Assembly (NCBI GenBank): GCA_950295325.1 | Contig: OX485805.1 | Location: 43,362,758-43,426,757 of the forward strand | From: Polytrichum commune | Taxonomy: Eukaryota; Streptophyta; Polytrichopsida; Polytrichales; Polytrichaceae | Length of the DNA: 64,000 nt | Direction: 5' to 3' | Part shown: piece after piece, positions 6,001 through 62,435 of the stretch | Layout of the letters: each line of letters begins with the position of its first letter | Numbering within the stretch: the first letter of the stretch is position 1 | Notes under the pieces: model-generated | The model's database searches: none | Told to the model about the DNA's origin: nothing | What the model saw: only the letters and a program-made list of their open reading frames with translations | Position numbers and translations under genes: made by a program

Positions 6001-8423
6001 AAGTGCCACAATTCAATACCATGATACATTTGGAAGAGCTCCACAATGTAGGGAAGGTATCCAGATGCAAATTGCACAAGTCTAGGCAAAACCAAACGCA
6101 ACATTACAAACCAATGAACCATAGACCTTGTATTGATCACCTGCAACTACTGAGTGCCAATCTACTTTAAATGAGTTCCACAAAATCATTGCAAAATATT
6201 TCAGAAAAATAACACATGATTTTCATTCCTAGAGAGACTAAATCTGTTTTTTCACTAGATTTTCAAGAAATGTGTGATCAGGTCACAGGTCGGCAACTTT
6301 GCAGTGTGCACAAAATACTCCACTGATGAGTTTGTACCTCAAGACACAGCATAGCAGCTTCCCTCACATTGCTATTGGAATCTTCTAGCAGTTGTAGAAC
6401 CTGCCATTACAAACAAAAGATTCCAAACCATGAACAGAAACCGTAAGTTCCAAACAGAGATTATAGAGCAGACTGATCGCTTTCAAGAAGGCAAGTATAA
6501 GTGAGAACAACTGCAAATGCAAACGCTCCCATTTCGATATATTTAAAGCCAATTCTGTATCCTTATTGAAGAAAATTACCTCCTAGCTTCTACTGCAAAT
6601 TTCTAGAACTTAGGGTATGGAAAGAGGAATAGGCCCCTTTTTTGCCCTTCGCAGTCCCAATAACAACAGGCCTGGCACTGACGCACCACCTACCTATGAG
6701 AAATAGGAAGCACTTACTAGTATAGTTCGGAACAAGTCTTTGCCTCTTCATTCAAGTGCCTCATCCTCACTTAATGAAAACATGCAAATACTTGCTGACT
6801 TGCAAATAAGTAAATTCATATTCATATTCATATTCATGCAACCCTGGACTCTTTCAGTCTACACACAGAAATTGGTGGAGCATGACAGAACACAGAAACG
6901 CCCTGGACATGTAAGTCATACCGATGGCAAAAGCAGACGCTGAAAGGGAAGCTCTGTTGCTGTGAACAAGTTAATTGCAGACGCCGCTGTCCTCGCAAAT
7001 TCCTCTCGCACCCTCCAATTCTTATGACCCCAAGCAAAGGCACCGGCTCTTTCCACGATGGTAGTAGGTGAAGAGATCTGTTGTGAAGGTAAAAACTGGC
7101 TTAGGACAAAATTTGTGGCCAAATTGCACATGGGGTTGAGCAACGCCAGGAATGAATGCTGTTGAGTGAAAAACTGAGCTTGGAATACCACTGCTACAAT
7201 GTGCTCACTAAGAAAACAAGGACTTCCTCCTCAAGCCTCAACAATATCAAACTCAAGCAAGTTTCCATACAGTAGTATGAGGTACCCAATAAGTTGATAG
7301 CCGGGAGAGAAGGCTGCTCTGAAGCACAGCTCAGAAGATCTGAGACATACAGTACAAAATTCTATACGATACCTAGACCCCGTGGGTATTGTTGGGTTTT
7401 GTACACAGGTAAGACATCTACAAACATTACTCCAAAGGGCCACTTATTTGAATGAAAGCAATTGCACCTGCATGAGTGCGCATGGGGTTGGGCATCGCCA
7501 GAAATGAATGCTATTGATTGAAAAATTGAACTTGGAATACCACTGCTACGATGTTGTCACTAAGAAGACAAGTACTTCCTCCTCAAGCCTCAACAAGAAC
7601 AATCTCGAGCACGTGTCCATACAGCAGTATGAGGTAACCAATAAGTTGATAGCTGGGGGAAGGCTGCACTGAAGCAGAGCTCAGAAGGGCCGAGACAAAC
7701 AGTACAAGACTCTAGACGACACCTAGACCCCACAGGTATTGTTGGGGTTCGTACACAGGTAAGACATCTACGAACATTACGCCAAAGAGCCCACTAATTT
7801 GAAGGTTTTGGACCAAGTGAAAGCAACTGCACCTCCACGAGTGCCAACTCAAGCCTCGACAAGAACAATCTCAAGCACGTTTCCATGTAGTAGTATGAGG
7901 TACCTAATCAGTTGATAGTTGGGGGAAGGCTGCCCTGAAGGACAGCTCAGAGGAACAGTACAAGACTCTAGATGATACATAGACCTCATGGGTATTGTTG
8001 GATTTCGTACAAGGGTAAGACATCTACAAACGTTACTCCAAAAGGGCCACTAATTTGAAGGGTTTGGGCCAAGCGAGAGCAATTGCACACCTCCATGAGT
8101 GCCAAAAGTAGGCGACGACCTGCGTCGCGCACAGGCTGTTTGCTGTCACCTAACCGCTCCACAATAGCTGGTAACAATGCGCCAAAATGCAGCTTCAGAT
8201 GCTCCCCTGCCACAGCGGCTGCCGAAGCCAATGCCTGCAGAGCCCCTTGGCATACTTTGAAGTTGTTGTCCTTCAACAAAGACATGGAGGCATCAACCAG
8301 ACTGGCCGTTTCGCTGGACGACAAAGACTTGCGGCATTGCTCCAGCAGAGTCTGCAGCCTCTCTACACCTGCCATTCTTTCCTTTGTATCCTTGGATTGC
8401 AACTGCGCTAAGGCTTCCTCCAT
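1..8423 (-). CDS. CLASP: CLASP, microtubule plus-end/lattice-binding TOG protein (3' part beyond window)
   Basis: CLIP-associated proteins bind tubulin through TOG (HEAT-repeat) domains and stabilise cortical and spindle microtubules. Coding exons read on the minus strand from the ATG at 8423: 8423-8091, 7077-6922, 6400-6338, 5970-5902, 5553-5313, 4811-4650, 3531-3434, 3099-3025, 2865-2797, 2537-2452, 2131-2014, 1571-1473, 1348-973, 868-<1. All junctions are GT-AG and phases agree, giving about 937 residues before the edge. Exons 1-4 (residues 1-207) form TOG1 and start MEEALAQLQSKDTKERMAGV. TOG2 covers about 300-523 (LVVITVLVIAESAD, RQCYRVFARCWPDR). A Ser-rich linker follows, with the plant motif SERSLESVLQ. 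A third TOG begins near residue 830. The acceptor at 869 (TAG before 868) is chosen because the CAG at 861-859 breaks the frame. Plant CLASPs are about 1,400 residues, so about a third lies outside. Domain order and identity are clear from family knowledge. Confidence 0.96.
7122..8090. repeat. Three diverged tandem units of about 250-370 bp in CLASP intron 1
   Basis: Three units share blocks such as CTCAAGCCTCAACAA, AGTAGTATGAGGTA, CCAATAAGTTGATAG and GTAAGACATCTAC. They start near 7130, 7480 and 7842. Each ends with a near copy of the last coding bases of exon 1 and its splice donor, including CACCTCCAYGAGTGCC on the plus strand. This implies duplication that included the exon/intron boundary. 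Unit 3 is shorter than the others. The repeats fill nearly the whole intron. Confidence 0.85.
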
Positions 8424-10004
8424 CGTTGTAAAAATGATAATGATGCTGATGCCTACTTATCAAACTCTGATTATTATCGAGTGTCAAGGAATTACAAAAC
8501 AAGTATTCAATGTTGCCTCCCGACGAGAAGGAACCTCCATTTTGCCCCGCCATTGCCAAATCTCCCTCCCTTTCTGTCGCCCCTCTTCTTCATGACCTCA
8601 TCATTCCCACTCCCACCATCGCACGATGCTCCCCCTCCAGGAGCGGAGAGCATCCTCTTCGACAGCTCACCACGGACCATGCCTAGAAGATGACCATCAC
8701 TTCACCACCAACACATTCCCCACACCCCAGAATCGGCCAATCTATCCCTCCCCCGGATCTCCAACCCCCGCTTCACTCAATTCCACCTCCTCTCACTCGC
8801 CAAAATTTCCACACTCCCGATGGCCGATGAAAATGAAAACAGCTCCTCCACACGTCAAGTTACACTCACATGCTCTCACCAAATCCACACTACCTTAACT
8901 CACCACCACTGCCCCCAGTCAATTCCGCAATGCAAGCTGCCCCAATAAGCCTCAAACCAGAACTCGACAATGTATTGAACTGGCCTGAAAACCTAGTCCC
9001 CGAGGCTCGCTCCACACCACGCAAACTCCCGATTGCCGATGCAACCACAGCTGCTACAAACACACGCTCCAAAGCCACCTCCCCGGGGCCTTACTTACCT
9101 CCTACCCCACTTCCTATTCCAATACCAGCACAACTCCTCGGAGCCTCAATCAATTCCACACCACAACCTGCTGCTGCCACCACTCGAACCTCCAGAAACC
9201 TGGAGCATCAGCAACCGATGCACATTGACTTCCTCCCGTCTCTCCCAACTTACAGCAGCAAGTCCAGCTTGCCTCACCCCAGAAACTCGTCACTGTAATA
9301 ACAGACTGGCCCGAAAACCTAGACCCGGGGCTCGCTCCCTCGCTCCACGCCCTACGTAACAATGCCGATGCAACCACAGCTGCTGCTGCTACAAGCACAC
9401 GCCCAAGCGGCCTCCTCCGACCTCACCTCCCACTACATTACCAGCACAAACTCCTAGGAGCCCCAATCAATTCCACAGCAGCACAAGCTGTGCCTGCCAC
9501 TGGAAGAAGCTCCCAGAAACCTGAGGCAATAGCAGCAGCAGGCAGTCAGTCGATGATGCGATGGCGATACGCGGAGAAAGTAAGCCAAGTTAGGTTAAGT
9601 TGTGATGGCTTAACCGAAGAGCAATTGTGCATCATGACATAGTTTTACTCCGGGAGCTGGAGAAGCTGGAGAGTGGCTACTGGTGATGATGACGACGACG
9701 ACGATCATGCTGTCACTACTGCCACCCTCCCTGTCTCCATGCTCGCGAGCTAGCTGTCTGTCTGTCTGCCTGCCTGCCTGCCTGCGAGGTGTGTGCGTAG
9801 CGTAAGTATGTTGAACTTACCCCAACCCTAGAGTGGTGATGAGTGAGCCTAAAGTTGCTGGTTGCTGAGAGGGAAGAGAAAGGAGAAAGAGAAAGAAGAT
9901 GGTGGGACCCCTCCTACTTCTGGTGGGGCCCGCGCTGTCTGGTGAATGTGGCGTGGGGCCCCCTCCTCTGCGCCCTGTCTTGCCTTGCCTTGGCTTCTCA
10001 GTGA
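8424..10004. repeat. CLASP upstream region: C-rich, with diverged tandem copies
   Basis: No gene is seen here. A Pro/Ser-rich open frame in several phases reflects C-rich composition. Blocks recur at about 8818, 9026 and 9360 (GCCGATGCAACCACAGCTGC in the last two), and around 8975 and 9303 (GGCCYGAAAACCTAG), and CCAATCAATTCCACA-like blocks recur at about 9150 and 9460. This is a tandem repeat with a period near 330 bp. A TGTC/TGCC microsatellite lies at 9754-9785. The region probably holds the CLASP promoter and 5' leader; I could not place a TATA box or leader exon. Confidence 0.6.
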
Positions 10005-24700: not shown

Positions 24701-25231
24701 TCAAAGGATTGTTGTGTTCCTTTAAAGTACTTACTATCTATTTGTGTTGTATTATGAAGAAATTGTATTCTCTGAAAGACATCATAGCACTGTTTATATC
24801 AAAACACCAAACCACACGAACTGAAATAAATAGTCTACCTAGTTGCATGAATCAGTACATGTGGCGTTCCAGGATGTATTATTGCAAAAGAAGAGCATGC
24901 TCACATGGTGAAAACAAGTGAAGGACCAAAAAAAACACCTAAATACCTTGAAAAGGTATGGCAATTCTCCTTGCCACCGTTCGACCACTTTGGGCCCAAG
25001 TGCTTCGGGGTGTGCGTCCAGCCAATCCTTGAGAGAAACCTCCGGGTGGGTTGTTTCATTTCCGGAACACACGAGGGATGGCCCAGACTTGTGGGTGCCC
25101 ATCCATAGCTCTGCGTAAGGCACATCTTGGATGTCGTTCCCAGACGTTAATGCATGAATGCGACCCACCTCGCTATCTGCACCAATACGCCCCCAGTCAT
25201 AGTGCTGGACAGCACACTGCAGGCGCAGCAT
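21739..25231 (-). CDS. PMI: Mannose-6-phosphate isomerase, type I (phosphomannose isomerase)
   Basis: The enzyme interconverts fructose-6-phosphate and mannose-6-phosphate, the entry step to GDP-mannose, ascorbate, glycans and cell-wall mannans, and acts in the cytosol. Exons on the minus strand are 25231-24947, 24364-24197, 23622-23407, 22790-22524 and 22098-21739, all GT-AG and all in phase 0, giving 431 residues, the usual family length. The zinc-site motifs are intact: QAHPDKKLA (Gln106, His108), NHKPEMALA (Glu133) and NEPHAYL (His272). The active-site Arg lies in DNVVRAG (Arg291). The N-terminus has the family motif YDWGRIG followed by [15 protein letters not shown]. The start is set at 25231 by alignment of [13 protein letters not shown] to the family start; an in-frame ATG at 25324 exists but probably lies in leader or intron DNA. 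Plants usually have one or two paralogues (PMI1, PMI2/DIN9); I cannot tell which this resembles. Confidence 0.96.
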
Positions 25232-25765
25232 TGGTAATAAATTGCTATTTTCTAACACAACCTTGGTCTGCTCCTGCTCCAGAAAAAGGCAAAATACAAA
25301 ATCAGTTCTACCACTTTGATCCATTCAACTAAATGCAGTACTACAAAATAAAATAATATTGAAGATTGACTGCTATTGACAACAATTAGCTCTTCTTACT
25401 TCTGTTTGTTTTGTCCAATTGGCAAGAAACAGCAACATAGACAACATAAATAAGTAAATTCGTGACAATGACTGTGTTCCTCTCCTAAATTCTATCTACT
25501 CCAGAATAAAGGGAAACACAGAAGCAAAGCACAGTCAGATGGTGACCTGAGTGTTTTCAGAATACTTTTGCAAGAAGAAAGAACAGGTCACCTAAAAAGA
25601 AATCCAAACTTGACACTAGATCCAGCAACAAAGACCCCGACTGATATTGCTTTAAAAAGGCACTATTGGTAATACATTGCTATTTTCTAACACAACCTTT
25701 CTCTGCTCCTTCTCCAGAAAAAAGTCAAATTTAGCGCTGCACTCAATCCATTCAACGCAAACAAT
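25230..25765. repeat. Direct duplication around the isomerase start
   Basis: The segment 25230-25340 (ATTGGTAATAAATTGCTATT, TTCTAACACAACCTT, CTCCAGAAAAA, ATCCATTCAAC) recurs at 25664-25762 with the same order of blocks. The duplicate covers the 5' flank and a potential acceptor site but not the coding part. Confidence 0.75.
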
Positions 25766-32389: not shown

Positions 32390-33718
32390 TAATGAGGCCC
32401 ATTTAATGGAGAATGGGCATTATTGTATAGGAGCATGCCTCTCATTCATCCAATATAAAGCTTTTAAATAGTATACATGCGGAGGTTACTTTTTCTCAGT
32501 TAATTTGACACCATAATTAGCTTTAAAGACCCCCAACTAGCGATTTCGCAGTCATATGAGATGAATTGGCAACAAACCTATAAGGGGGGTGTAGTTTTTA
32601 TGTTGGAGGAATGAGAGGTATGCTCGTATGCGATAATTCTTTCTCTCAGTTTGAACACTCAATTCGATCACACAATATTTCATGTTCGAAACCATGGTCC
32701 TATTGACACGAAGTATTGGTATATTCGAGCCATTTTTGTCAATCCAACTACCATTATTTCTATTGGGAAGCATGTATCTTCAATAGTGCATCTAGGTGGG
32801 CTAGGACTTAGGGGTTGTTTTACATCATGGACCATGAAGTCGTCCCTTGCTCCCCTAAAACTTGTGATTGGTTGTCGAACTTGTCCCGAGACACACTTCA
32901 ATTTCTATCAAGGAGAAAATGTCAAAGTAATCTTGACGATTGAGGTCCCCGAAAGGCCTATATTCAGGCGTACACTAACCATCGTCATGATCCAACATGT
33001 CTTTATGGTGACAAAGGTCGAATAGGTTATTTTGCTGCTACAAAGTCACCGGACCATGGCAAAGAAATACCATTTTAATATTTTAAATCATTTTTTATTT
33101 TATTTTATTTTTGGGTTGGTATGGAAAATGTTATTGTAGTTAAGAGATGAGAAAAGGGAAGAAAAACAGAGGATATGAAACATGAAACGAAACAAATACA
33201 AAACTACCCTATTTGGACATATTTCAAAAAAAAAACAACACATCCACTTTTGGGTGCATGATTATTATTAATCCACGTTCGGTCTAGTGAGAAACCTAAA
33301 AGCTTAAAAAATTACATTCTTTTGTAAATCTGGCCATGGAAGTGTGAGCATGGAGAAAAGACCATTAGACATGGGACAACTTCATGGTCCATGATGTAAA
33401 CAAAGCCCCTCAAGTTACGTTCTCCATTCATCACCCAGTAACTACCCATGCATATACATGCCACCTTCAGCTTCCCATTAAAACTAACCGAGTCTTTACT
33501 CAACATTCACTAGAAGGATCATGTGGATTGGGCACTAGGCACCGTATTTGGGTCACATTTTCATGAGATGAAAACCAAGAAAATTTGGGAGGATGAAGTG
33601 AACTTATCCCATGCTAATGTAAACCTAACATTATTTGTGATTCCTTGTAAAAACATATTTGGGCGGTATTGATCGCCATATATTATTGCTTCCAAACCAA
33701 GAAGACTCATAGTGATTT
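32390..33718. other. Gene-free stretch
   Basis: A block at 32590-32645 (GGAGGAATGAGAGGTATGCT, CGTATGCGATAATTC) matches 17690-17745, so part is repetitive. An open frame at 32651-33025 shows no domain. No RNA gene is seen. Confidence 0.45.
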
Positions 33719-35382
33719 CCAAAAGTAATGCAACACCCTTCACAAACATACAAAATCGACGTTTTCTCGGGAAAGGGGAAACCTTACATCATGCAGTGCT
33801 AGCACAAGCTAAAGAACGTATGTAGCTAGCCTCATGTCAATTTCCATGGTAATCATATTCACATGCCAACAATAAATGGTAAAAAAAACGTGAATTTGGG
33901 TGTTGCATTATTTTTGGAATTCTTCAAATTTGGTGAATTGCAATAGCAGTCTACGTTATAGTATGCAATAACTTGTTGGTTAACATGTTTGCTTTGCATT
34001 CACAAGGTCCTTGGTTCAAGTTCCCCTTCCATCGTGCCCAAAACTTCCTTTGAAATGTGTGCACATGTCATTGCCCTCCATATTGAAGAACAAATTTGTT
34101 GTACATTAGCTAGGAAACTAGAAACAACACCATCAACAATTAATCACATCATCAACGTTACGGAGCTACATGGAAGTTAAAGGATAAGGGAAGGTCATGG
34201 CGTCTATGCATTATTAGTGCAATGGGATGATTGTTACTTGGCTCGATTGGTGCAAACATAATAGTAGACTATTGCAGTAAAAGGTTAGAGGGTTCTCCAG
34301 GTGTTTCAAATGTCACAACTTCCCTTGACACAATAAAAAGAGCACTACAACGCGAAATTTTTTGCAGTTTAGAAGAAAAAAGAACCTTTCCTTTTGGATT
34401 GTCACAATCAATGAAGACATGAATGGGCAAAGGATCACAAGGATTGGACAAAGGAGCAGTGGAGGAAAGTCGTATTCTCGTATGAAAGTAAATTCAACAT
34501 TGTGGGGTCTAATGGTCGAGAGTGGTGTTGTGAAAGGCACGGGGAATCCCTAAGCAATCATGTGGTTAGTACAACTAAAGCATGGAGGAGGGAGAATCAT
34601 GGTCCAGGGTTGCATGAGTTGGGAGGGCGTTGGGGAGTTGACCATAATCCAATGAGTATGAACAATGAACAATGAGCATTATCATAACATCTTACATGAT
34701 GACATGAGCCTGTCAATTGTGAAGTTCAAACATAAAGCGGATGAATGGGTGTTCCAACATGATAATAACCCAAAACACACTAGCAGGTCGACAATCAAAT
34801 GGTTCAACAATCACGCAATCACAGTAGTGCCATGGATTCCACAATCTTCCGACATGAATCCTATCGAACACATGTGGAATGAAGTGGATCGGTGCCTCCA
34901 ACTCTATAAATACCACCCCACTAGCAAACATGACATTTGAAAGAAGCTATAGGAATGAAGGGAACAATATTGAGATGGAAGTCATACAAAAGTTGGTGAA
35001 ATCAATGCCCAACAAAGTGCAGGCATTGTGGAAGGCGAAAGGAGGAGACACCAAATACTAGCCAAATAGCGTAGCATTGATATAAAATGAAGAACAAACA
35101 AAGTGTATTTTTTGTATGATTTGCAATGTTTTCAATGTCATCTAACAGGGGGTTCATGTGTCCTGGAACATAATAATGTCAAAAGTGCCAAAAGTAATGC
35201 AACGCCCCCAAATTCATATTTTTACCATTAAATGTTGGTATATGAGTTCGATCACCATGAAAATTATAGGCTTGCCACATACTTTATTTTGATTGTGTTG
35301 GCACCACGTGACGTAAGCTTTTCCCATTTCCAAGAAGATGTCAATTTTTTTATGTTTGTAAAGGGCATTGCATTACTATTGA
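33719..35382 (+). mobile_element. Tc1-like (DD34E) DNA transposon, 1.66 kb, with long terminal inverted repeats
   Basis: The two ends are about 195-199 bp inverted repeats: left 33719-33917, right 35188-35382. Each carries an outer and an inner copy of CCAAAAGTAATGCAACRCCC facing each other. The aligned interiors match throughout (TTACATCATG/TTACGTCACG, TCATGTCAATTTCCATGG region). The total length is typical of Tc1 elements. The exact outer boundary is uncertain: a TA is visible at the right (35377-35378) but its counterpart on the left is AA. A decayed transposase lies between the repeats. Confidence 0.85.
34041..35061 (+). pseudogene. Tc1-type transposase pseudogene (DD34E)
   Basis: The transposase would bind the terminal repeats and cut out and paste the element. 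Pieces in order are: an N-terminal helix-turn-helix (FEMCAHVIALH, TPSTINHII), the first catalytic block reading FSYESKF at 34475-34495, a GCMSWEGVGEL block, and QHDNNPKHTS with the second Asp at 34761-34763. The block MNPIEHMW follows, with the Glu at 34866-34868. The C-terminus is KLVKSMPNKVQALWKAKGG, ending in a stop at 35059-35061. Exactly 34 residues separate the second Asp and the Glu, the DD34E spacing of true Tc1 elements. The first catalytic Asp is replaced by Tyr, and several frameshifts and stops break the frame, so it is inactive. The full span would suit a protein of about 340 residues. Confidence 0.85.
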
Positions 35383-38300
35383 AAGTCGTTGTACACGTAT
35401 ATAGATGGTAGGAGACTCTATTGGGCTATAAATCCGATATACATTACATTACATGCCACCTAGTACTGGGACCGTATGTCCTAAGGATATTTTTAAAAGA
35501 AGAAAAATCATGTTGGTTGAAAGGGGTGTGCCTCCATAAAACATGCCCAAACAAAACAGTTTTAACGTGGGGGCGACCAAACGACCACACTAATAACCAA
35601 TCTTTATGAAAAAGTTTGGGTGTTTGGTAAAGCCATGTGAGGATGAGCCTTTAGTGTAGCACAAATCCATGCCCTCTTGGCCCTTTGCACATGTACATAC
35701 GACACATAATTCGTCATGCCTTTTTAAAACGGTGGTGAACGGTGGGGAATCATCAGGTGATGGCTGCACCACCACCACCACATTGTTCATTGTACAAAGG
35801 CTATTAGCATGCATACGTTAGGGTATGTTGTCTAATATTAGGATTGGATACAAAACATTCTTGTCATCTTGGTCACACCTTCTCCAAGTAAATATTATCC
35901 TATGTGGATGGTGTTGAATCTAGACATCAAAATGGATATATTTTCAAAATTAGATTATGACAAAGCTAAAGTTTGACATTTTCCAATTCCAATTGTTAAT
36001 TTTAATTTTGATATTTCGAGAAATAATTTAATTTCCATTGAAACCACCTAGGTAAGCCGGTAGTGTCTTAATAGAGAGTCATGATTGAACCTTCAACTGC
36101 TCACTTTGTGAAACCCCTTTTAGAGTACATGGTGAAAGAAAGGGTGCAAATTATACCCATAATTGCTATCATGGAAAAAGTTGTGCCATTGATTGAAGCT
36201 TTTACTAAATGCCTTCAATTAACTCTATGTGAGGAAGTACATTTCAAGGCTATCAATTTACCATGTCCATCACATCGGACATTAATTATGCATTGTGTTG
36301 GAAAACAACAATTAAGTTATCATCATCATCATCGTTATTATTTTCTTTATTAGTATATGGTAGTGTTAAGGAAATGCTCCCGTAGTGGTTATGTGGAGAT
36401 CAAGTTTGATAGAAGTATGCTATCCGTATGAATGTAGTATGAAGTTCATCCCTAGATATTCATTCCGCACGATATTAAACACTCAAAACAAGGACCAAAG
36501 AGTATATTTTCAAGCAACTACGCCCTTTTATTACCCAAGACCTTGAGACCTAGGAGCATCTAGTTACTTGACCCAGGACTTCTCATCCCTCTAAACACAT
36601 ATAAGCCAAGTTATCTTTGTAAAATTAAGTGCACACTAAACTAAACACCAAATCATCTACTGTTGTAAACTCTCGAAGAGAGAGAGATTATGTCAGTCAT
36701 AGGTTAGAGAATGAGAGATGCTTCACACTTGACCATGGCTGTGAACTCATATGTAAACTTGAGCGAGGTTTTATGTAGCACAACATCATTAACCTTTAAT
36801 GATCTAAAGTTCATATTTGTATATATAGTTGAATCAAGCCCAAGTTGTAATTACAACATGCATGAGTTGTGTGGTAGGATCCTTCAATAAGAATAGACTT
36901 GCATGCATGACCATGAGAATAATACACATGTTAATTGATAAATTGTTTTTAACATCATACAAATTTATATTAAAATTTAACCAAATTGAAACATCTTTGT
37001 ATTTGAATAATCATAAAAATTGCACATACACGCCATGGAATTAAAATTTATTGAAAGTGTGTCATCAGATCTGCCCGTAGAATTGAGGTAGCCTAAATTA
37101 TGAATTATGAAGAAATGTCCTCTTTAACTTAAATATTAGTTCTAAATGTATACAAATGCTTTAAAATGTATTGATTATATTTTTGTTATAATAGCCATGA
37201 TACATACCACACAGGTGTCAAAACCTCAAAAGAATTTAAAGTTTTCAAATAACATGTTCAACACTTTTATGAGAAAAATTCAACATATTTTCAAATACTT
37301 GTAGGGCAAAACCAAATAAAACTATGAAATTAATATGAACCTAGTAAGATCAACAAGTTGGAGGCTTGATGGTATGTGAGGAGATTCAATGGGACTTACA
37401 CCTACTTTGGTGTTCTTTATAGTTTGATAGAGGTTAATGGGAAGTATGGTAATTATTTCTATTAGTATGGGTGAAAATTAGTGTGAGGATAATTAGCAGG
37501 GACCATATTGAATTTCTAGTCAAGGTGGAATTAACGTAGGTCCAAGACTAGACATGGGTCCATGTCTATAAGTAAGTCGTCATGAAGACTTGCGACCAAC
37601 ACATTGATTATCAGTTATAGGACAAGAGTAGCGCAAAATTAAAATAACCACCCACATCAATTTTTTTAGAACATCACCCTTTGTAATGTCGCTCCCTCTC
37701 TTATATCCCCAAACCCCAGGGAACGGATGTGCTTAGTTGAATCTCCCTCCACATTGTCACATTTCCCTCCCATAAATCATAGATTTTTACACTAAAATAA
37801 TCCAACAAAGCATTCATACCACATACGCTTGCATGCATCCCGTTGTCATCGTTGTAACTATTGTCATCATTGCAATGTTGACTTTCTGATATCCCATAAT
37901 GTCACACGCTACATTGATTCTCTATTATCATGCGCCCATGTTAATACTATAAACCTCCTTAATATCACGTGCACTTTGGTTACCACATGCATGATATCAA
38001 GGAGGGTAGAGTGTAGTGTGTCCCACACTTATTTTCTACTAGAAACTTAGCACGGGTTTGAGAACTAATGTAAATCCACTTTAATTCTCATTATGAGCGT
38101 GGGCTTCAGAAAACGACTAGCTCACAATAATAGGACTCAACTACACTATAAAAGATATTTAGTGTATGGTTATATTTAATGTTATTACCACCCTATCATG
38201 CTCAATAATAATTTTCAATTTGTTGACAATTAGTGTTAGAAGACTTGCTAGAACATATGCTGAAATTCTCCTTGTATCATTTAATTTTTCTTTTCCCATA

Positions 38301-40655: not shown

Positions 40656-41202
40656 CAGAGCCCAACATTTTTCCTTTAAATTGCACTCATACCCAGACCA
40701 TGCCCATCAACAACGACCTATGCCCACCCATGCCCACCCATGCTATTTAAATTGCGCCCATGTATTCAAAAATTGTGTAATGTGTATTACCCGCCTACAC
40801 CAAGTATTGGTTGGATTGGACAAATAAAAATTCATTCACTATCGTTGGCTTCAGCCCGGAGCGCTTCTTGGTTAGCGTATTCCCTGCATCCGAGAAGTTT
40901 GACTCCGATTTGGAGTTGGATGTAGGGATGCACAAAACCGAACGCGCCACGCGCGACATGATGGGGAATGTGGGGGCTCCTCTCAGCTTCCACCACAAGA
41001 GAATACTAAATTTAGCAACGGTATCCAATATGTTTTGCTTTAGCCTATGCTGACCCATGAACAATAATATCGAACCCATGCCCACCCATGAACAACAATA
41101 TCGCAGCCATGCCCATCCATGAACAATAATATCGCAGCCATGCCCACCCAAAACCCATGGGCATGGGTGGGCATGGGTATGGGCACCCAATGTAGGGCTC
41201 TG
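40656..41202 (-). mobile_element. Internally deleted hAT transposon, 547 bp, 8-bp target duplication
   Basis: The ends are CAGAGCCCAACAT and, on the other strand, CAGAGCCCTACAT. The octamer CTTCACAC lies directly on both sides (40648-40655 and 41203-41210). Both features define the hAT superfamily. The minus strand still encodes part of the hAT C-terminal dimerisation domain. The subterminal region contains many direct and inverted repeats of CCCATGCCCA, typical of hAT transposase-binding regions. Confidence 0.9.
40795..41050 (-). pseudogene. hAT transposase C-terminal (hATC dimerisation) fragment
   Basis: The translated minus strand reads FPIMSRVARSVLCIPTSN followed by SESNFSDAGNTLTKKRSGL and VNEFLFVQSN. 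This is the conserved end of plant hAT transposases: the motif beginning with SE.FS..G and followed by KRS.L.P. The N-terminal zinc finger and RNase H-like catalytic region are missing, so the protein cannot act. The open frame runs to 41244 but only this part shows homology. The fragment lies wholly inside the 40656-41202 element. Confidence 0.85.
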
Positions 41203-41754
41203 CTTCACACACGAGACTGAGAGCCAGTGACCATCACACTTCAAGCACTCTCATTGGTGGAAAAGGTGAAGCCGGTTCACGTTCACTTCACGCTATGCTT
41301 GAGGGACCGACATAGTAAGTGAATGTAAGATGGATGTAAGGTCTACATGGATTCCTACATGGCATCCAATGGATCATGTTTCATGGTCACTTGGACTATT
41401 TTCAAAAACCACCTCTTGGAGGTATGCCTAACACAAAACTGGGAGACCATGGCGCTCCAAACGCTCACAACCGTTGGTTTATTTTATTTTATCGTGTGTG
41501 AAGACCCGCATGAATAGAATTTCATTAAAATAGCAATTGTTGAGGGCCCAGTGACATATGACTTCACACTACACTTGAGGATCCGTGACTACACTACATG
41601 ATTGTGGAGGTGTCTTGGGACGGCCTTAATTTGGACACTTCTCTTTTGGGCTCTCACAATTTCATGGTCATGGATCTTGGCTCGTGTGTGAAGTAGTCCT
41701 TAGTACTTAATTATTTTTTACAATAAATGTTAAATATTGTTAGGTTCACATTTA

Positions 41755-60063: not shown

Positions 60064-60161
60064 ATTTTCAAATGTCCTATTAAATTTTCAAGCTCATGCT
60101 ATCGTTTCACAAAACACTCAAGGTGGAAATATATAGAAAACGAAGAGATCAGTGAGCCAAG

Positions 60162-62435
60162 ATGACAGTTGCAATGGATCCAAACATCATGAGAAGGATA
60201 ATGAAACTTGTGATTTCCACTTTGATGTTCGCAATATCCATGTATTTGATAATCTGGTGGTTCTTCACTCCCACAATGCTTGGTTGGACAATCGAAACGC
60301 TTGTAACACAAAACACACACAAATTCGGCGACATGGTCGGAGTTTACATGTTATACACGTGCCCTATTATAATTCTCGCACTTCTTGGGACATTGCATTT
60401 ACATCTCACGAAGAAATCTCCGCCATCATTGAAAGCCAAGAAGAGCAGAAGTGATAAATTTTTCGCTCGAGCTTCTCGCATGTGGAGAATGTCGTGGACA
60501 CGGCCGGTGTTTATCAACCGCGTGTTCGGGGTGATGGCCGTAGTTGATCTCGTCGCAATTATAAGCACATTGGTTTTGGTTTTTTGGCTTTTCTACGCTT
60601 GGTACATGCCCCAAGCGAAAGCCATTGACGCGGTTTCTAATACCACTGGAGTGGACAAAGTGGTGGCAAAGACAGCACAAGCAGGAACGATGTTGGGCCG
60701 GGTCTCGGCCGTGCTCATGTCGCTTCTTCTGCTCCCGGTGACAAGAAACTCACCGATTCTACGCATGCTTGGCCTCCCATTCGAGCAAGCAGTGAAATAC
60801 CACAAGTGGGTGGGCTACCTCCTAGTCGCGGTCATTTTAGCGCACGGGGGCTCGTTCATTGGAGTGTACGCGAAAACACACACATGGTACCGGTTGATCT
60901 CCTTCACCACGCCGCCAAACGGATCATCGGGAGTGGTCGTGGTTCCCGGACTTGTCGCCTTATTCATCGCCATCTACATGGTGGCCACATCGCTGCCGAC
61001 GATCCGGCGCCGTCATTTCAATTTTTTTTACTACTCTCACCAACTCTACATTGTGTTTTTTGCCGGCTTCGTGTACCATGTTGGGGTGAGAACGGTCGGA
61101 TATACAATGGGCCCCATTTTCCTCTTCTTCCTCGACCGGTTTATGCGGTTCTGGCAATCAAGGCAATTGATACAAGTGTCCAGGGCACGCGTGTCTTTTG
61201 ACGGAATAATCGAGCTCAAGGTTCCGAGGTCCTCGACATTAACGTACGACGCCCTGAGCTTCATGTTCTTGAAGGTACCTAGCGTTTCCCATCTTGAATG
61301 GCACCCGATTAGCATGGCGTCGAGTGCTCGAGATTGTGCGGGCGAAATGACCATTCACATCAAGAAAGTCACAGGCGCATCCTCCGCGAAAAACTCGTGG
61401 ACATCCCGCGTCGCTGCACACGTCACGGAGATCGCGAATACGGCCACTGAGAAAAAATGTCCGTTCTCCATGCCGATCGCCGTGGAGGGTCCGTACAGCG
61501 ACGAATCCGAGTATTATCTTAACTACAAGACGTTGGTGCTCGTTGCGGGCGGCATCGGAATCACGCCGTTCATGGCCATCATCCAAGACATTTTGCACCG
61601 ATATCGCATCACAACTCACGAAGAAAGAGTTCACCTACCGAAGAACATCGTGCTGATATGGTCGGTTCGGTCCGAAACTGAGCTCGACATCCTCCGTCAA
61701 GTTTCACCGAGTTTGATTTTCAGGGACTATGAATCGGGTGCATGTCGAATCTATGTGAAGGCGTACGTGACGCGGTTCCAAACCAACAAAGCTTATGTGG
61801 ACGACAACGTTGACAACAACCTCGGAGGGACGATTCATGCGATTCCCACACCTGGTCCCAACGACAATCTAACCAACACGAGTCGCGTTCGCTCAGTCAT
61901 AGGAACGGGAGACAACTTGTGGATGTTCTGGATGATTTTGATCACAAGTTGTGCGACGGTTGCAACGTTTCAAGGCATAAATCTGGTGCCTCAAAACATT
62001 CCGAACTTCCAATGGATCCAAGGCAGCCTCTTGTTCGTGAGCATGTTTGTGGGCATCGTGGTCGCCGGGAGCGCCGTGCTTTTGTGTTGGACCGCCCATT
62101 CCAAAAGCAAGGAGAGAGAACTGATGGAAAATCATGCACATGCGGCGCGGGTTGTGGGCTCATATGAAAATGAGCTTGCTAGTGTTGATGACATTGAGTG
62201 GGCTCATCCAACTTTGTATGATATGGCCGAGGGTTACATGTTTTCGCGCCCCGATTTTTCAAGGGAGTTTGATCAAGTTGTAAAGGATTTTGGACACGAA
62301 GATGTCGGTGTTCTAGTTTCCGGCCCGGAGGGCCTTCAACATGTTGTGGCGAAGGAATGTCAAAGGTGGTCAGGTTTGCAAGCCACTTTGAAAGCCGAAA
62401 TCTTTAATTATCATTCGGTTAGTTTCTCTCTATAG
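60162..62435 (+). CDS. FRO: Ferric reduction oxidase (FRO family metalloreductase), intronless
   Basis: FROs pass electrons from cytosolic NADPH through FAD and two hemes across a membrane to Fe(III) or Cu(II), supplying Fe(II) to transporters. The single open frame encodes 757 residues, slightly longer than typical plant FROs (about 700-750). Membrane segments are predicted at about 14-35, 60-82, 123-148, 180-193, 215-232, 258-280 and 290-330. The heme-ligand His pairs are His214/His228 and His293/His306. HPISMAS (381-387) is the FAD-binding motif and LVAGGIGITPF (460-470) is the NADPH-binding motif. Two more membrane helices (586-606, 621-642) precede the cytosolic tail, as in plant FROs. 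The C-terminus FNYHSVSFSL matches the family ending. The usual Cys in the VL.CGP motif is Ser (VLVSGPEG, 718-724). No introns are present and codons are richer in G+C than the flanks. Plasma-membrane or organelle location cannot be told. Confidence 0.96.
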   Translation: MTVAMDPNIMRRIMKLVISTLMFAISMYLIIWWFFTPTMLGWTIETLVTQNTHKFGDMVGVYMLYTCPIIILALLGTLHLHLTKKSPPSLKAKKSRSDKFFARASRMWRMSWTRPVFINRVFGVMAVVDLVAIISTLVLVFWLFYAWYMPQAKAIDAVSNTTGVDKVVAKTAQAGTMLGRVSAVLMSLLLLPVTRNSPILRMLGLPFEQAVKYHKWVGYLLVAVILAHGGSFIGVYAKTHTWYRLISFTTPPNGSSGVVVVPGLVALFIAIYMVATSLPTIRRRHFNFFYYSHQLYIVFFAGFVYHVGVRTVGYTMGPIFLFFLDRFMRFWQSRQLIQVSRARVSFDGIIELKVPRSSTLTYDALSFMFLKVPSVSHLEWHPISMASSARDCAGEMTIHIKKVTGASSAKNSWTSRVAAHVTEIANTATEKKCPFSMPIAVEGPYSDESEYYLNYKTLVLVAGGIGITPFMAIIQDILHRYRITTHEERVHLPKNIVLIWSVRSETELDILRQVSPSLIFRDYESGACRIYVKAYVTRFQTNKAYVDDNVDNNLGGTIHAIPTPGPNDNLTNTSRVRSVIGTGDNLWMFWMILITSCATVATFQGINLVPQNIPNFQWIQGSLLFVSMFVGIVVAGSAVLLCWTAHSKSKERELMENHAHAARVVGSYENELASVDDIEWAHPTLYDMAEGYMFSRPDFSREFDQVVKDFGHEDVGVLVSGPEGLQHVVAKECQRWSGLQATLKAEIFNYHSVSFSL

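Follow-up and report, generated by a model that had tools for sequence, protein, structure and literature searches.

A decayed Tc1-like transposon in the moss Polytrichum commune and facing inner sites in the ends of seven DD34E families

The transposon and its surroundings

The window contains a decayed Tc1-like transposon with long inverted ends. The window is a 64,000-nucleotide stretch of the Polytrichum commune genome (GCA_950295325.1, contig OX485805.1, positions 43,362,758 to 43,426,757), in which an alignment of 45 terminal repeats from the genome and a terminal-repeat profile delimit a real transposon of 1682 bp at 33710-35391 (forward strand). An initial annotation, made from the sequence alone, had placed it at 33719-35382; the element stands, but its true termini in the 45-repeat alignment are 9 nt outside these coordinates at either end. 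The inverted ends that it described are present as a left terminal inverted repeat at 33710-33930 (forward strand; profile match 33711-33930, 205.7 bits) and a right one at 35176-35391 (reverse strand; profile match 35390-35176, 193.9 bits). Conservation in the alignment sets in sharply at TA followed by CAGTGACTTCCAAAAGTAATGCAACACCC. The termini of this family, termed family A, read TA followed by CAGTGACTTCC, and the majority of the 45 repeats is TACAGTGA, giving CAGT termini. In the window copy, decay has changed the termini to TAGT and CAAC. A TA target-site copy follows the right end at 35392-35393, while the left end is preceded by CA at 33708-33709, probably a decayed TA target copy since TA is conserved there in the alignment. 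Elsewhere in the window we found a hAT transposase fragment at 40795-41250 (reverse strand; Pfam Dimer_Tnp_hAT, 1.3e-18) and host genes represented by a TOG/HEAT-repeat exon at 7986-8456 (reverse strand), a phosphomannose isomerase exon at 24839-25324 (reverse strand) and a ferric-reductase type oxidoreductase at 60156-62435 (forward strand). The plant host proposed at the outset agrees with the 4 LFY-family and 13 dynein heavy chain matches (12 over the cut-off) in the genome, as expected of a land plant whose sperm swim. The LFY DNA-binding part at locus L019 has its best match in PDB 4bhk (1.1e-36), a P. patens structure, followed by 9g19, 9fwy and 2vy1, consistent with a moss.

The transposase of the window copy is broken and carries tyrosine at the first catalytic position. 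Its reading frame is interrupted by frameshifts and stops and is split over several frames, all on the forward strand. An open stretch at 34415-34675, aligned to relatives, includes the first catalytic position, where a TAT codon for tyrosine (34481-34483) replaces the aspartate of the relatives. A second fragment at 34662-34940 holds the second catalytic aspartate (34761-34763) and the catalytic glutamate (34866-34868), and matches Pfam DDE_3 weakly at 22.8 bits, below the cut-off of 28.6. The C-terminal fragment at 34858-35061 lies in a different frame and its last part aligns to relatives. The D-34-E block read by the initial annotation is thus present with a spacing of exactly 34 residues, and the label DD34E holds for this copy in its spacing and glutamate but not in its first aspartate, the window copy being Y-D34-E. 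A plant DD39D mariner would have aspartate as the third residue at a spacing of 39; the window has glutamate at a spacing of 34, and its relatives match Sleeping Beauty, consistent with the original assignment to the Tc1-like group.

Each end of the window copy contains an inner copy of its outer site in facing orientation. Each end was searched for its own first 32 nt. At the left end, the outer site at 33714-33738 (forward strand) is complementary at 23 of 25 positions to an inner site at 33898-33922 (reverse strand). At the right end, an inner site at 35189-35207 (forward strand) faces the outer site at 35363-35381 (reverse strand), and both inner sites lack the CAGT end. The facing scores are 21 and 15, and the sums of outer and inner position are 218 and 214. 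None of 500 mononucleotide shuffles and none of 200 dinucleotide shuffles per end reached these scores, which excludes chance for the facing sites of the window copy. Inner sites in direct orientation, as in IR/DR ends, were also searched for and gave best scores of only 6-10, against up to 21 for facing sites. Where the direct score was 9 or more, 11 to 54 of 200 dinucleotide shuffles did as well, and such matches look like background. The earlier reading that the internal copies face their outer sites instead of repeating them directly is therefore borne out.

Family A and its relatives in the genome

Family A is an old family of decayed copies. We searched the 407.8-Mb assembly of 64 contigs, of which seven contigs of 42-78 Mb total 406 Mb; seven chromosomes would fit Polytrichaceae. 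The left 202 bp as query gave at least 40 terminal-repeat matches genome-wide (40 scored among 90 candidates), from which 36 loci besides the window were taken for examination. Further copies with both terminal repeats, the check suggested with the initial annotation, were found at 14 of these 36 loci, with spans of 449 to 2926 bp, some of the terminal-repeat matches being partial. Of 15 two-ended family-A copies, which include the window copy, 8 are flanked by TA at both ends; the window copy is not among these 8. Ends that are mobile by themselves were not seen, as all 36 loci continue into the element interior. The repeats have a median likeness of 86% to the majority and 78% to each other, and the copies form a star-like tree with long tips. 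We read this pattern as that of a family old in this genome, which probably expanded in one burst long ago and then decayed. Among individual loci, the 449-bp copy (L044, 155-603) is a MITE-like internal-deletion derivative with TA on both sides, and an open frame beside another family-A copy (L068, 2421-2873, forward strand) looks by eye like ribosomal protein L23a.

Tyrosine at the first catalytic position is common in family A. The codon could be compared in 41 aligned loci, 29 of which have letters there and 12 of which do not. Across the 29 loci, window included, it reads TAT in 14, GAT in 5 and AAT in 5, the other five being one each of T-T, TGT, AGT, ACT (probably misaligned) and CAT. 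Loci of other families keep the first aspartate in 19 of 21 cases. Some 13 kb to the left of the window, another family-A copy (L067, C3:43348200-43351600) also has tyrosine at this position. Fourteen independent identical transversions are implausible, so elements already carrying tyrosine must have been copied. In the Tc1/mariner superfamily the first catalytic aspartate holds the catalytic metal, and the tyrosine elements were therefore probably mobilized in trans by a transposase that retained it, a reading drawn from this one codon. The tyrosine copies do not form a clean subfamily: the star-like tree does not unite them, and no tyrosine-linked columns were found, compared to 0-2 in 12 label shuffles. 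A second catalytic subfamily defined by a glutamate-to-lysine change was also rejected, the codon lying on a CpG with both decay products present.

The genome contains further DD34E families, some of them better preserved than family A. A search with one 92-amino acid fragment returned at least 150 scored relatives among 382 candidates, several of them with open frames of 300-400 amino acids. Besides family A, we distinguish families B (L056-L058, L060, L061), C (L059, L062), D (L063, L065, L071, L073, L075, L078), E (L064, L076), F (L070) and G (L079). Family H (L074, L077), for which no ends were found, was left out of the family count. Pfam DDE_3 and HTH_Tnp_Tc3_2 matches above the cut-off are present in families B, C and E. 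The affinity to Tc1 over mariner comes from an intact family-B relative, which matches Sleeping Beauty (SB100X) at 2.5e-46 and Mos1 at 1.9e-6, the animal sequences compared being PDB chains. Identity between families in the catalytic region is 26-55%, with A nearest to F (46-47%). An unrooted FastTree tree, built without fungal members, separates A and F from B, C, D, E, G and H, and Sleeping Beauty joins A and F with a local support of 0.977. Relatives in viral and prokaryotic collections were limited to weak matches (14 loci; best 80 of 307), and the best 80 of these 307, bacterial by record, we infer to be IS630 elements. Family B has 18 further pieces at 93-98% identity, a likeness from which some DD34E families appear to have been active far more recently than A. 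Beside a family-C element, perfect 27-nt inverted arms 487 nt apart (L059, 590-616 and 1104-1130) perhaps represent another small inverted-repeat transposon.

Facing sites in seven families

Facing inner sites at a fixed spacing are common to seven DD34E families of this genome. In each of families A-G the family's own outer site recurs in facing orientation, the two copies lying about 180 bases apart at approximately 9-27 and 191-209 nt from the terminus. Their positions thus sum to about 218, placing a mirror axis near 109. The site cores are CCAAAAGTAATGCAACACCC in family A, CAAAACTGAGT in B, TCAAGAAATGAGTCTATG in C, CAAAAACCGAGTCTATG in D, AACAAAATTGAGT in E, ACAAAAGTTATGGGCCA in F and CTCACAAAATTGTTCCAATG in G. 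The C and D sites are partly alike (cross scores 13-14), which limits the independence of the families. The inner match corresponds to about positions 9-27 of the outer site, without its CAGT end. The facing structure that the initial annotation regarded as an unusual trait of the window element is real, but it is not peculiar to that element.

The shared position of the inner sites carries the case. When every family is represented by its first copy (for D, one end each from two elements), the single best facing placement falls at sums of 212-223 in 12 of 14 ends, the misses being end 2 of B_L056 and end 2 of F_L070, and better copies picked for B and E raise the count to 13 of 14. The chance of such a sum is about 0.07 per end, for a range that was fixed after the first axes had been viewed. 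Over all 41 ends, which are not independent within a family, 32 fall within the range, with 2 ties and 7 misses. Family-A terminal repeats have sums of 212-223 in 39 of 45 cases and of 205-223 in 42 of 45. Off-range ends with a facing site are the two of D_L075 (237 and 207), end 1 of A_L027 (207) and end 1 of A_L040 (189), values that insertions or deletions would give. Several individual matches are weak. Dinucleotide shuffles reached the scores in 11 of 200 trials at both ends of E, 14 of 200 at end 2 of C, 27 of 200 at the 3' end of B_L060 and 43 of 200 at the 3' end of B_L056, and the match at end 2 of B_L058 has the right position, although 287 of 500 shuffles scored at least as high. 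Because of these weak B, C and E ends, the argument rests on shared position and not on single ends.

The inner sites are related to the outer site of their own family. In a comparison between families, the inner sites scored highest against their own outer site in 7 of 7 rows, with B tied with E. In eight element pairs from families B-G, the DNA separating the sites shows no greater likeness from end to end (0.65-0.72) than between families (0.69). The inner sites of these pairs are alike between ends at 13-19 of 20 positions, compared to 11-13 in controls, with E equal to its control.

Relation to known elements and possible roles of the inner site

The window element itself is a dead, decayed member of an already known kind. 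Tc1-like DD34E elements were initially described as typical of animals and fungi, but in plants PpTc1 and PpTc2 of the moss Physcomitrium patens were already published in 2014 (Liu and Yang, PMC4054914). The early observation is confirmed, and its interpretation is supported in part. The two elements share the moss host, CAGT termini, TA target and D34E spacing with the window element and are of similar length (1,584 and 1,709 bp versus 1,682 bp). As described there, their copies are about 96% alike, compared to about 78% for family-A repeats, and their terminal inverted repeats are given as 33 bp, with an inner site unmentioned in the accessible part of that paper; the comparison is by description only. 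As regards origin only, a horizontal transfer that brought the family from fungi into the moss lineage, of the kind suggested for PpTc1 and PpTc2 (PMC7466625), seems to us unlikely here. The P. patens elements are reported to be closest to fungal ones (PMC7466625), and the plant distribution of Tc1-like elements is patchy (PMC4054914), both of which favor such a transfer; the age of family A, with its repeats at a median of 86% likeness to the majority, and the coexistence of at least seven Tc1-like families in one genome speak against it.

The facing arrangement is what distinguishes these ends from those of known systems. Tc1-like elements whose ends carry inner direct repeats form the IR/DR group (PMC7827188, PMC3828361, PMC4120734), and for Sleeping Beauty the way in which inner and outer transposase sites are arranged is described as determining the order of assembly before cutting (PMC7827188). 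Families A-G resemble this group in their Tc1-like transposase, as seen in the SB100X match of family B, and in having a second, inner site per end at a roughly equal distance, with ends near 220 bp in the descriptions available, but their inner site is turned towards the outer one and is not a direct repeat of it. Plant DD39D mariner-like elements (PMC4054914) and Mos1-type mariners share the superfamily and TA target, and differ from the elements described here, which have glutamate at a spacing of 34 and, in family B, a weak match to Mos1. In searches of the open-license PMC literature, no description of facing inner sites in Tc1-like elements was recognized, a result that does not imply their absence from the literature. 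What is new is the facing-site architecture at fixed spacing common to seven families, and this is the part worth following. Tc3 of Caenorhabditis elegans is a Tc1-like DD34E element for which an internal site has reportedly been found. A single site per end is described for Tc3 in the accessible text of PMC7827188, in contrast to the two facing sites found here.

We consider it probable, from sequence comparison, that the window element is an old, dead copy of a family-A Tc1-like transposon and that its inner facing site is a putative second transposase-binding site, bound but not cut. The absence of the CAGT end at the inner site would fit such a role. Within one end, the outer and inner sites mirror each other just as the two outer ends of the element do, which could allow a symmetrical transposase dimer to span both sites and bend the intervening DNA into a loop. 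This facing arrangement may be the counterpart of the ordered assembly at the direct-repeat ends of Sleeping Beauty.

Two other accounts of the inner site appear less consistent with the data. In one, which we regard as improbable, transposase bound to the inner site controls promoters inside the ends and the site has no part in end pairing. A Bari3 end does contain a promoter, and a reporter under its control was lowered by transposase (PMC4120734). The inner site of C_L062 (193-212 from the terminus) likewise lies upstream of the Met opening P0003, about 340 nt from the terminus. A single promoter, however, would need no facing site at the opposite end, where families A, C, D, E and G carry one with the same spacing. 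We give very little credence to a historical residue, in which an ancestral inverted duplication of the end was inherited without function. The seven families, all from a single genome, may have a common ancestry, as their identity of 26-55% in the catalytic region would allow, but a functionless residue would drift, whereas in B-G the inner sites stay alike while the DNA between the sites differs from end to end, and the inner sites vary with the outer site of their own family.

Facing-site families fall on either side of the split between A and F and the others in the unrooted tree. Going beyond the bound-but-uncut second site, we tentatively consider a lineage-wide architecture of moss Tc1-like elements, with an outer site and an uncleavable facing inner site about one nucleosome repeat apart, in which pairing within an end might act as an assembly checkpoint and the family-A elements lacking the aspartate might be passengers and possibly repressors. 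The facing sites suggest a second look at the published moss elements whose terminal inverted repeats are given as 33 bp. The mirrored arrangement, recurring over seven families with different site sequences, represents a natural test of the idea that site arrangement sets assembly order, and the well-preserved family B offers material for such a test.
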